Shown here: in pieces, positions 46,847 to 50,110 of the stretch | Layout of the letters: each line of letters starts with the position of its first letter | How positions within the stretch are numbered: the first letter of the stretch is position 1 | Origin: Phycisphaerales bacterium | GTDB taxonomy: Bacteria > Planctomycetota > Phycisphaerae > Phycisphaerales > UBA1924 | Direction: 5' to 3' | Assembly: GCA_035627955.1 (NCBI GenBank) | Contig: DASPKU010000007.1 | Coordinates: 186,001-250,000 of the forward strand | Length of the DNA stretch: 64,000 nt | Program-made: the position numbers and the translations under genes | Notes under the pieces: generated by a model | The model's input: the letters and a program-made list of their open reading frames with translations, nothing else | Told to the model about the DNA's origin: nothing | Database searches by the model: none

Positions 46847-47683
46847 TTAGGTGATGAGCACGGCCACGACCACGTTCATCGCGTTGAAGGCCATGTGCAG
46901 GGCGATGGGCACGGCGATGCTCCGCGAGCGCTCGAAGGCAAAGCCCAGGCACACGCCGAAGACAAACAGCGTGCCCACCGCATACCACGGCACGCCCGTG
47001 CTGACGTGGGCGAGGGCAAAGAGCGCTGCGGTGATTACGATCGCGGCCCAGGGGCGGCGCGAGAGCCGCAGGATCCCCGACTGCAGGAAGCCGCGGTAGA
47101 CGAGCTCCTCGTGGATGGGGGCGAGGACGACCGCAACGGCGATCATGACCCAGGCCCAAGGGTCGCCGCCGTCGCTGGTGATGGTGCGGAGGGCAGGGTG
47201 GGCGATGGGGTCGGTGACGCGGGTGGAGGTCTGCAGCTCGTACGCGAGCTGGAAGACCCCGGAGCAGAAGTAGAGGATGGGCACGCACAGGGGCAGGCAG
47301 ACAAGGCCGAGGGCGAAGGTGCGCGGGCGTGCGGTGAGGCCCGCCGCGGGCGCGGCTCGGCGGATCATGACCGCGAGAAACCCGGACACGGCGAGGGCCA
47401 CGGTGAACGACGCGGCGCCGGTGATGGCCATGCCGCGTGTGCTCGCCGGGTCGGTGCCGCCCAGCAGCAGCATCGCCGGCAGGCTGCCGAGCATGAGGCC
47501 GGCGTAGCCGACGATGGACGCGATGAACCAGAAGGCGGGCTCGATGGGCGCGAGGTCGCGGAGGCCGCGTGCCAGCACGCCCGGGCGCAGCGTGCGCGTA
47601 GACCACAGGAGCCAGAGCACGCCCAGGGAGAACGCGAGCGCGGCCCAGGTCGACCACGAGGTAAGGAACGCTTCACCGGGCAT
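46847..47683 (-). CDS. CPBP (CAAX/Rce1-type) intramembrane metalloprotease
   Basis: 278 residues from ATG 47683, with about eight membrane helices. The CPBP motifs are visible: IHEELVYRGFLQ (Glu-Glu-x3-Arg), ALAHVSTG and ALHMAFNAMNV (second and third His motifs). In bacteria these glutamate-type proteases process or modify membrane proteins, sometimes linked to bacteriocin immunity. Upstream of the ATG the same frame reads LIVGLALALFPSPRAHAQ, a convincing signal peptide, but without ATG, GTG or TTG before it; CTG 47794 or ATT 47791 would be needed. The true start may therefore be earlier and overlap the divergent TrpC-like gene region. Confidence 0.8.
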   Translation of the reverse strand: MPGEAFLTSWSTWAALAFSLGVLWLLWSTRTLRPGVLARGLRDLAPIEPAFWFIASIVGYAGLMLGSLPAMLLLGGTDPASTRGMAITGAASFTVALAVSGFLAVMIRRAAPAAGLTARPRTFALGLVCLPLCVPILYFCSGVFQLAYELQTSTRVTDPIAHPALRTITSDGGDPWAWVMIAVAVVLAPIHEELVYRGFLQSGILRLSRRPWAAIVITAALFALAHVSTGVPWYAVGTLFVFGVCLGFAFERSRSIAVPIALHMAFNAMNVVVAVLIT

Positions 47684-47813
47684 TGCGGCGGCTGTTTCAC
47701 CAGTTGGGGCTAGAGCTTCAGGAACGGGGGTCGTCCCGGTCTGCGCGTGCGCACGCGGGCTCGGGAAGAGGGCCAGGGCAAGGCCAACAATCAGGGGCGT
47801 GCAGGACGAACGC

Positions 47814-48635
47814 GTGACGCTTGAACGGATGGTCGAGCACAAGCGGCGGCGGCTGGCGGAGGCCAAGGCCCGGACGCCGCAGCATGAGCTGGAGCTGCTG
47901 GTCGCCCAGGAGGAGCCGCCGCGGAACTTCTTCCGCGCGGTGACGCGGCGCCGCGGGTTCCACGCCACATCGGTGATCGCGCAGGTGATGCGGCGCAGCC
48001 TGGGCAACGGGCTGCTGCGGCCGGAGTACGACGGCGAGGGGTACAGGCCCGCGGACATCGCCAGACGTTATCACGCGGCCGGGGCGTCCGCGATCGCGTG
48101 CGTGACCGAGGAGGACCATCATGGGGGGAGGCTGGACGACATCCGAGCGGTGAAGGAGGCCGTGCACCTGCCGGTGATGCGGTGGGACGTGATCGTGGAC
48201 CCGTGGCAGCTGTGGGAGAGCCGCGCCGCGGGGGCGGACGCGGTGCTGCTGATCGCGGACATCCTGCGCGAGGGGGAGCTGGTGGATCTGCTGATCCTGG
48301 CGCAGCAGCTGCAGATGACCACCCTGCTGGAGGTGCACGACGTCGAGAGCCTGCTGCGGGTGCGGCCGCACTATGGGTTCCCGCACCGGAGCTATGCCCT
48401 GCTGGCGATTGACAACCGCGACCCCACGACGATGAAGGAGGACCTGCGGACGACGCTGCGGCTGGCGGACCTGGTGGAAGACCGTGCTACCTTGGTGTCC
48501 GAGGCGGCCGTGCACGACCGCGACGACCTGCTCAAGTTGCGTGGGGTGGGCGTACGGATCGTGCTCGTCGGCGAACACCTGCTGCGGAGCGACGACCCCG
48601 GGTTCGCGCTCCGGCAGCTGCTCGGGTCTGATTGA
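47814..48635 (+). CDS. TrpC-like (indole-3-glycerol-phosphate synthase fold) protein lacking catalytic lysines
   Basis: 273 residues from GTG 47814, chosen because AGGA lies 7 nt before; GTG 47799 and ATG 47829 are alternatives. The fold is clear: LERMVEHKRRRLAEAKA, PADIARRYHAAGASAIACVT, VDPWQLWESRAAGADAVLLI, TTLLEVHDVESLLR, VSEAAVHDRDDLLKLRGVGV, VLVGEHLLRSDDP. Yet key residues differ. AEIKRAS is AQVMRRS (Glu to Gln, Lys to Met), RKDF is RWDV (general-acid Lys to Trp) and INNR is IDNR. Normal tryptophan-pathway chemistry is therefore doubtful. It lies 35 bp before the TlpA-like gene, probably one operon, with no trp genes near. Confidence 0.8.
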   Translation: MTLERMVEHKRRRLAEAKARTPQHELELLVAQEEPPRNFFRAVTRRRGFHATSVIAQVMRRSLGNGLLRPEYDGEGYRPADIARRYHAAGASAIACVTEEDHHGGRLDDIRAVKEAVHLPVMRWDVIVDPWQLWESRAAGADAVLLIADILREGELVDLLILAQQLQMTTLLEVHDVESLLRVRPHYGFPHRSYALLAIDNRDPTTMKEDLRTTLRLADLVEDRATLVSEAAVHDRDDLLKLRGVGVRIVLVGEHLLRSDDPGFALRQLLGSD

Positions 48636-48670: not shown

Positions 48671-50110
48671 ATGCGGACGACGGCGATTTCGCGGGTGCTG
48701 TGGCTTGTGCTCACCGCGGGCGGGGCGGTGGGTGTGGTTGGTGCTGCGCACGGGCAGGAGAAGTCACCCGAGGATGGGGGGCAGCCCGCGAGCGCTCCGC
48801 AGCCGGAGACGCCCGCTACGCCGGCACCCGCGGAGGGCGCCGCCCCGGCTGCTTCGACCGATCCGGGGCGGGCGGTCTTTGAGCAGGCCCGCGAGGCGGT
48901 GAAGCGGGCCCAGGCGTTCACCTACCACGCGAAGTACTACGGCACGGGCGGCATGGAGATGTACACCTCGCGCGTGGAGGCCGACGTGCGGCTGATGCGC
49001 TCGCCGCGGGGCACGGCGTGGCTGGGGCGGGCCATCGGCACGGGCGAGAGCCGCTCGCTGCCGCGGTTTGAGATCGACGTTGGCTGGCGCGAGATCACCA
49101 ACGAATGGATCGACCACAAGGAGAAGAAGCTGTTCGAGAAGAACAAGCGCGACTCCAAGGGCGTCGCCTTCACCATGGGCAACAGCGCCCGCCTCGAGGA
49201 GCTGGTGGACCCGCAGCCTTTCAAGAACGAGCTCGCGGCGGGCGTGACGTACGAGGTGGAGCCGGCGGTCGAGTTCGCGGGCGTGACCTGCGACTCGATC
49301 CTGGTCAAGACCGGACGGACGAACGTGCGGTGGCTGATGGGGCAGCAGGACAAGCTGCCGCGCAAGCGCGAGGCGGTGCTGAACAGCAGCACGGTGTCGG
49401 GCACGATGGTGATCGAGCTGCACGACATCAAGGCGGACGAGAACCGCCCGCCTCGGATGACCGAGGAGATGGTGCGGGTGGCCCTGCCCGAAGGCTACAC
49501 GGAGGAGCGGGTGGCCCCGCCCCCCCCACCGCCGCCGCCCCCGCCGCCCCCCGCGCCGATGCCGATGGAGTCGGGCAAGGGCGACCCCATGCCGAGCCCG
49601 GGCAAGGGCGAGGAGCCCGCGCCGCCGCCGAAGGTGGAGGAGCCCCCGCAGCCCACGGTGCAGATGGCCCCCGACTTCGAGTTGAGCACGCCCACGGGGG
49701 AGAAGGTGTCCGCGGCCTCGCTGCGCGGGAAGGTGGCGGTGCTGCAGTTCGGCGGCTCGTGGTGCCTGCCGCTGCGCGACGCCAACCCCGAGGTCCAGGC
49801 GATGGCCTCGGCGCTCAAGGACCGCGGCGTGCAGGTGTACTACGTGAACGTGCGGGAGAAGAACCCGGCGCAGATGGTGGATGAGTTCGGCAAGGCGGGG
49901 TTCACCTTCGGCGTGCTGCTGGGCGGGGATGAAGTAGCCAAGGCGTTCGGCGTGAAACGCTACCCGACGTACTGCGTGATCGACCCGAGCGGGATGGTGG
50001 TGGCCCGTGAGGCGGGGTACACCAAGGACGCGACCATCAACGCGGTGCGGCAGGCGGCGGAGGCGGCGCTGGGGGGGGCGGCGCCCGCGCCGAGCACGGC
50101 GGGGAAGTAG
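48671..50110 (+). CDS. exported TlpA/redoxin-like protein with N-terminal LolA-like domain, single Cys
   Basis: 479 residues from ATG 48671 (GGAGAGG upstream). Signal peptide ends GAAHGQ. Residues about 75-270 (FTYHAKYYGTGGMEMYTSRV, EWIDHKEKKLFEKNKRDSKG, VNSSTV-like strands) resemble the DUF2092/LolA-type fold of exported proteins. A Pro-rich linker with a run of 12 Pro follows, then a thioredoxin-fold domain (MAPDFELSTPTGEKVSAASL, VAVLQFGGSWCLPLRDANPE, VKRYPTYCVIDPSGMVVARE). The expected WCxxC is WCLPL, so the resolving Cys is missing and a classic disulfide reductase role is unlikely. Probably cotranscribed with the TrpC-like gene. Confidence 0.82.
   Translation: MRTTAISRVLWLVLTAGGAVGVVGAAHGQEKSPEDGGQPASAPQPETPATPAPAEGAAPAASTDPGRAVFEQAREAVKRAQAFTYHAKYYGTGGMEMYTSRVEADVRLMRSPRGTAWLGRAIGTGESRSLPRFEIDVGWREITNEWIDHKEKKLFEKNKRDSKGVAFTMGNSARLEELVDPQPFKNELAAGVTYEVEPAVEFAGVTCDSILVKTGRTNVRWLMGQQDKLPRKREAVLNSSTVSGTMVIELHDIKADENRPPRMTEEMVRVALPEGYTEERVAPPPPPPPPPPPPAPMPMESGKGDPMPSPGKGEEPAPPPKVEEPPQPTVQMAPDFELSTPTGEKVSAASLRGKVAVLQFGGSWCLPLRDANPEVQAMASALKDRGVQVYYVNVREKNPAQMVDEFGKAGFTFGVLLGGDEVAKAFGVKRYPTYCVIDPSGMVVAREAGYTKDATINAVRQAAEAALGGAAPAPSTAGK

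Follow-up and report, generated by a model that had tools for sequence, protein, structure and literature searches.

In the window, a 64,000-nucleotide stretch of a Phycisphaerales genome, the gene at positions 47814 to 48635 encodes a protein with the fold of indole-glycerol-phosphate synthase (IGPS, TrpC). There is strong support for the view that it has lost the IGPS active site and kept an intact barrel. The best explanation is that the gene is directly orthologous to ordinary trpC and has turned into a pseudoenzyme, and the selection that acts on such dead TrpC genes after loss of the tryptophan pathway suggests a second, non-catalytic job. We consider it fairly probable that the window's protein is retained for a job that is independent of catalysis, that probably consists in the binding of a partner, and that the live enzyme already had.

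Active site and fold of the window's TrpC

The window is part of contig C7 of a draft genome (G000) of 4.26 Mb with a completeness of 95.7%. Its features that are relevant here are as follows.

47814..48635, + strand: degenerate TrpC (IGPS-fold pseudoenzyme), 273 amino acids, GTG start assumed
47982..47990, + strand: codons Q57-V58-M59, in place of canonical Glu51 and Lys53 (Sulfolobus numbering), from the alignment
48183..48185, + strand: codon W124, in place of canonical catalytic Lys110, from the alignment
48201..48239, + strand: codons 130-142 PWQLWESRAAGAD, helix a3 and the loop to b4, retention in dead proteins at least as high as in live ones
48330..48332, + strand: codon E173, equivalent to Glu159, the sole catalytic residue of six that is retained, from the alignment
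48411..48413, + strand: codon D200, in place of canonical Asn180, from the alignment
48504..48509, + strand: codons A231-A232, in place of canonical Ser211-Gly212, from the alignment
46847..48058, - strand: divergent CAAX/Rce1-like intramembrane protease (PF02517, 80.4 bits)
48671..50110, + strand: TlpA/ResA-like gene (PF00578, 57.2 bits)

The trpC frame runs from a GTG at 47814 to a stop codon ending at 48635. Upstream it is open as far as 47514, so that its exact start is not fixed. The match to PF00218 spans the whole profile and the full length of the protein (165.5 bits; cut-off 27), and the best score against the NCBIfam TrpC equivalogs, 195.1 bits versus a cut-off of 317, is below every cut-off shown. 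An AlphaFold2 model built with 31 homologues (mean pLDDT 95.0, pTM 0.93) has 6y88, the IGPS of Pseudomonas, as its closest solved fold (TM 0.91).

The catalytic residues of Sulfolobus IGPS, as named in the accessible part of PMC3391178, are E51, K53, K110, E159, N180 and S211. At these six positions the window's TrpC is aligned with Q57, M59, W124, E173, D200 and A231, which means that five of them are replaced (E51Q, K53M, K110W, N180D and S211A in Sulfolobus numbering). Furthermore, the SPS motif is broken (P to L), F112 has become V and G212 has become A, and G233 is retained. An earlier note on this DNA had deduced the loss of two lysines, one glutamate and one asparagine from the motifs AQVMRRS, RWDV and IDNR. 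All three motifs are present, as is the retained LLEVHD, and the four losses are right by alignment; the fifth, serine to alanine, had been overlooked. The same note regarded the phosphate-binding end as roughly intact, which is true of G233 but not of S211/G212 and the SPS loop, which are lost.

For comparison, 13 TrpC residues were scored in the GTDB family of the window's genome (f1; 163 genomes). E51 and K53 are present in all 138 family genomes that were read with a complete canonical TrpC, and these 138 genomes carry all 13 scored residues; the replacements in the window's protein are therefore not a matter of chance. It is barely credible that the protein retains IGPS activity through catalytic residues at shifted positions, even though no other IGPS was found in the genome and E159 is kept. 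Its only lysines, at positions 10, 18, 114, 208 and 241, lie away in sequence from the replaced positions, and a migrated catalytic lysine was rejected on this ground. Moreover, with trpA and trpD not found and a TrpB that lacks its PLP lysine, the product would have no obvious use. These observations support the view that the window's TrpC would not catalyse the IGPS reaction.

Pathway loss and ancestral gene position

With strong support, the tryptophan pathway of the window's genome appears to be missing trpA and trpD, neither of which was found in G000, and to be left with degenerate homologues of TrpB and TrpF. The TrpB homologue, at 339 bits against a cut-off of 392, reads YPGSAAINH where live relatives read HTGAHKINN, and it is without the PLP lysine of that motif. 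The TrpF homologue reaches 70 bits, compared with 128-160 for solo TrpF proteins with canonical motifs. It has lost its acid (LVDG to MVQA) and its phosphate loop (DVSSG to EACAG). The frames of both genes are open despite their degenerate sites (TrpF, L105, G000:C15:236774-237346; TrpB, L182, G000:C1:425794-426945). A PF00218 profile search of the genome returned one match only. The second, canonical TrpC for which the earlier note proposed to search was thus not found, and a paralogue that diverged alongside a canonical enzyme was rejected on this ground. Since no second TrpC was found and trpA and trpD are missing, the setting is one of pathway loss and not of duplication and divergence.

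The named relatives found (45 loci) are metagenome-assembled genomes, mostly titled Phycisphaerales, Phycisphaeraceae or Planctomycetota. Among 40 live named loci, a CAAX match lies beside trpC in 36, a TlpA-like gene in 33 and both in 31. Both neighbours are also found in six of the eight dead loci, the other two, G085 (on a 3.8-kb contig) and G058, showing neither. Of 21 loci from other families, for which mostly just 1.5 kb of flank was covered, 16 have a CAAX match and none has a TlpA-like gene. As the two genes flank live trpC too, the window's gene is a trpC orthologue in its ancestral place. The pairing with a TlpA-like gene, offered earlier as a clue to function, is for the same reason uninformative, and we dropped any functional meaning of this neighbour.

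Some further observations concern these loci. The TlpA/ResA-like protein of the window has WCLPLR in place of the expected WCxxC redox site, and a long, proline-rich linker precedes its redoxin domain. The CAAX protease frame as listed overlaps trpC, and its true start is probably near 47750. A record named 'Cyanobacteria bacterium CYA N2_1' (L150) bears a Phycisphaerales-type trpC locus and is probably a mislabelled bin.

Conceivably, the common order of trpC and the TlpA-like gene in live and dead loci could reflect a constraint at the level of the operon or the DNA, the trpC frame staying open just for translation of the gene downstream. We regard this as very improbable. Such coupling requires an open frame but not the conservation of amino acids, and the constraint on the protein is strong, as described below. 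In addition, no TlpA-like match lies beside the dead TrpC of G058, and TrpF and TrpB show like behaviour in other gene contexts.

Distribution of dead TrpC

PF00218 matches were obtained in 150 of the 163 family genomes. Apart from the 138 canonical cases, a dead TrpC is the only copy in six genomes (G000, G014, G028, G085, G091 and G093), while G020 has a dead TrpC plus a canonical one that adjoins trpB and trpA. Five genomes have pieces of TrpC only (G021, G024, G034, G156 and G149); the reading of residues covered neither G149 nor the second match found in G111. The dead orthologues in these seven genomes keep 4-8 of the 13 scored residues, versus 13 of 13 in the canonical ones, and no complete copy read in the family falls between 8 and 13. 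The mildest case is G091, where E51, K110, E159 and N180 are retained and K53M, R182H, E210A and S211T are found.

Several planctomycete lineages with a dead TrpC appear to have lost the tryptophan pathway. In the family, trpA is absent from all six dead-only genomes versus four of the 138 canonical ones (Fisher p 2e-8). These four (G090, G094, G097 and G129, with completeness values of 60, 64, 91 and 86) hold a canonical TrpC, which indicates that a gap in the assembly can account for a missing trpA. Nearly all genomes are assemblies of several to hundreds of contigs. In 17 genomes trpC lies within about 3 kb of trpA, and the family profile finds the old copy as well only in G020. Five of the 15 trpA-less family genomes are without a TrpC match. 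Searches for trpA, trpD and TrpC all failed to find them in G031 (86% complete, and with its rpoB match also missing), G118 and G181. A second job of TrpC therefore cannot be vital everywhere, and retention of the dead protein is not universal.

In the sister family, to which G058 belongs, 134 of 141 genomes match PF00218, and residues were read for nine complete genomes, mainly low-scoring ones. A dead TrpC is present in G058, G212 and G241, all of genus g56. G241 has, besides its dead ancestral TrpC, a canonical TrpC with an adjoining TrpF on another contig (L254, L255). The TrpC of G225 (L256) also looks dead, with K110 changed to Ser and E210 to Met and with Glu51 and Lys53 kept; perhaps it represents an early stage of inactivation.

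Across the eight dead rows of the alignment, the K53 position is occupied by M, A, T, V, V, M, K and F and the K110 position by W, K, R, R, R, K, G and H, K53 being retained in G093 and K110 in G028 and G091. The Met and Trp replacements of the window's protein, whose conservation in relatives the earlier note had suggested checking, are thus not conserved. Such differing letters argue against one shared new substrate, and because of their variation between most lineages a shared new active site was rejected. Of the earlier proposal of a new substrate or a non-enzymatic role, the second half is the best reading of these data and the first is disfavoured as a substrate common to the dead proteins, although a new substrate in the window's lineage alone is conceivable.

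The same variation fits several inactivation events. In an rpoB tree of 29 rows, the dead lineages of the family occupy about six places, namely G014+G085 (100/99), G028 as sister to the canonical G019 (97/89), G093, G000, G020 and G091; the rows of G013, G091 and G033 filled just 17-19% of the columns, and G031 contributed none. Eight changes are needed on this tree for the label 'dead or none'. The best TrpC tree, of 88 rows, needs four changes of the label 'dead', two of which are forced by starred branches, the forks there being open. The two trees conflict over G020, the TrpC tree grouping it with G028. G014 and G085 share K53V, K110R and S211G and were for that reason probably dead before they split, although R and G at these positions also occur in G020, which makes parallel change in the two genomes possible. 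Together, these findings strongly support loss of the TrpC active site in several lineages other than that of the window, their exact number being uncertain.

Selection on the dead genes

Conservation was examined in 64 columns with an identity of 97% or more among 78 distinct canonical rows. The eight dead rows keep 57 of 120 of these live-invariant cells at the active site versus 292 of 392 elsewhere (p 9e-8). When the sister pair was counted as one row, the values were 50 of 105 and 260 of 343. Row by row, p was below 0.05 in four of the eight (G000, G028, G091 and G058). The 15 active-site columns were chosen by the author, and S64, A65, L97, F103, G198 and I233 were counted as 'other'; these six are poorly kept and probably lie near the site, so that their label works against the selection reading.

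A similar picture was obtained from columns whose conservation in live rows is 90% or more. Among these, the dead rows departed most from the live pattern in active-face loops (32 columns, 0.57 retained) and strands (29 columns, 0.70), less in helices (33 columns, 0.86) and least in loops of the other face (13 columns, 0.95). Identity to the live consensus in helix a3 was 0.94 in dead rows versus 0.89 in live ones, and in the AGAD motif 1.00 versus 0.93. According to the part of PMC5343507 available to us, GxD loops such as AGAD are known clamps that serve barrel stability, and part of the retained pattern therefore reflects a plain folding need. What the dead TrpC proteins have in common is an intact barrel whose outside is conserved and whose active face varies freely.

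A codon model with three tips, run with our own script, gave LRT values of 27.5 to 139 on the dead branches tested and rejected the neutral rate on all of them. The clearest instance is the pair G014+G085 (LRT 139, p 5e-32). For single dead rows, part of the branch predates the loss, and this applies to the window's own branch, for which two sets of relatives gave LRT values of 40.6 and 48.3. An LRT of 247 was obtained for the dead trio of genus g56, in a test whose 'live f2' control contains G225, itself dead-looking. As expected, neutrality was also rejected on three live branches. In every TrpC set the synonymous sites are saturated, which makes the omega values of about 0.03 to 0.12 rough figures rather than measurements and leaves only the rejection of neutrality usable.

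The eight dead genes have 12 in-frame indels of their own and otherwise whole frames, each of the six dead-only f1 genomes gives one uninterrupted TrpC match, and the G+C content by codon position follows the pattern of a coding gene. The rows used are all open frames, so that a badly broken copy could have escaped notice.

These data bear on the idea that the window's gene is a slowly decaying pseudogene, its frame still unbroken after a recent loss of the pathway. The degenerate TrpB and TrpF of the same genome and the trpA-less genomes without a TrpC match would agree with this, as would the fact that G+C-rich DNA rarely yields stop codons. Nevertheless, we judge it improbable. The codon model and a loss that was aimed at the active site speak against neutral decay, the neutral rate was rejected even with a probably dead ancestor, and the reading frames survived repeated indels with a coding-gene composition. 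There is thus strong support for the view that the dead TrpC genes are under purifying selection, directed at the fold, at the outer helices and at those loops that lie away from the active site.

The main rival to protein binding is a ligand-binding role. The protein could be a new, lineage-specific enzyme with a new substrate, or a sensor that binds a phosphorylated ligand without turnover. TIM barrels are easily re-used, and selection on the fold would fit such a role equally well. In addition, E159 and G212 are each kept in seven of the eight dead rows and G233 in six, so that leftover ligand binding is possible. However, the catalytic letters vary among most dead lineages with no shared new site visible, and no structural class is conserved less well among the dead proteins than the active-face loops, at 0.57 against 0.95 on the other face. 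We therefore consider an enzyme or sensor unlikely.

Probably dead TrpF, and TrpB without its PLP lysine

Genus g23 has an operon TrpF together with a second, ancestral-type TrpF in G022, G117, G119, G121 and G122, and in G118 the ancestral-type TrpF is retained and the operon TrpF absent. In G022, G117, G118, G119 and G121 this TrpF has Glu as its acid, a shorter glycine stretch after it, an altered phosphate loop and a retained cysteine, and the copy of G122 is more decayed. The change of Asp126 to Glu also occurs in the operon TrpF of the genus, and in G117, G118 and G119 an arginine sits one place ahead of the expected one; for these reasons 'dead' is only probable for the TrpF proteins of g23. 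The loci concerned are L107, L272, L273, L274 and L268. The ancestral-type proteins of G022 and G121 are 93% identical at 20% third-position differences, which is unsaturated, and the three-tip set gave an omega estimate of 0.05. The operon copies of the same species are 71-74% identical.

A TrpB without the PLP lysine was found in G000, G181, G033 and G091, and in G020 as a second, very divergent copy. Neutrality was rejected for the G091-G033 pair (LRT 331) and on the branches of G000 and G181. The letters at the lysine position differ between G091 and G033, and their ancestor may therefore have been live. Apart from its lysine-less TrpB, G033 has a low-scoring TrpA (L083, 190 bits) and no TrpC, TrpD or TrpF match.

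No neighbour gene common to TrpC, TrpF and TrpB was detected in the few loci examined. In these, TrpF lies next to a rhomboid protease or citrate synthase gene, and TrpB next to an MFS/Atg22-like gene. P0002, initially taken as a conserved TrpF neighbour, was rejected because it runs antisense to the citrate synthase gene, with which it overlaps. An intramembrane protease adjoins both TrpF, live or dead, which lies behind the rhomboid protease, and TrpC, which lies by the CAAX protease (L283, L286, L278 and window positions 46847-48058).

That a probably dead TrpF and a TrpB lacking its PLP lysine are retained as well makes a general second role likelier than a peculiarity of TrpC. As a tentative extension, it is possible that the separately encoded TrpC, TrpF and TrpB of Phycisphaerales each have a non-catalytic second job that outlives the pathway, and would repeatedly become selected pseudoenzymes, sometimes beside an acquired live trp operon. 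The three proteins may still act together, for instance in a shared regulatory or structural complex.

A proposed second job for IGPS

On our preferred reading of a catalysis-independent job, live TrpC would already have had this second job. With the pathway gone, or an acquired trp operon in its place, the active site would no longer have been under selection, while selection for the second job would have continued. This job would most likely be the putative binding of another protein via the outer helices, with TrpC as a scaffold, stabiliser or allosteric partner, and the best candidate for the binding face is a3-a4. For IGPS, known from textbooks and used as a model barrel in studies of protein folding and design, a second job is unexpected. 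That it was repeatedly inactivated in place amounts to a natural experiment, in which the needs of the active site can be told apart from those of the second job and which shows where on the barrel to look for the latter. It also follows that a match to TrpC, TrpF or TrpB by profile score is no proof that an uncultured bacterium makes tryptophan.

Comparison with known systems

The window's protein shares with IGPS (PF00218; PDB 6y88, 1a53) its fold, homology over the full length and an orthologous genome position. It differs in that five of six catalytic residues are replaced and that trpA and trpD were not found in the genome. Another parallel is Chlamydia trachomatis, where a catalytically dead TrpA is retained and activates TrpB. 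There, likewise, a tryptophan enzyme without activity of its own has been retained after partial loss of the pathway; however, the partner TrpB is live in Chlamydia, whereas in the window's genome TrpB has lost its PLP lysine and no trpA was found.

No description of a TrpC pseudoenzyme was found in the open-access literature, as judged by titles and the beginnings of abstracts. For freshwater Planctomycetes, the part of PMC6461901 at hand describes uneven amino-acid pathways and auxotrophies and reports no loss of tryptophan synthesis. In pseudoenzymes generally, the catalytic motif is lost and the fold kept, and scaffolding or allosteric roles are usual, the examples in the available portion of a review (PMC10211241) coming mostly from signalling and ubiquitin-type families. 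The window's TrpC resembles them in the loss of the motif and the retention of the fold, but here the active site disappeared from a single-copy biosynthetic enzyme at its ancestral position, and did so in several lineages as the pathway around it vanished.
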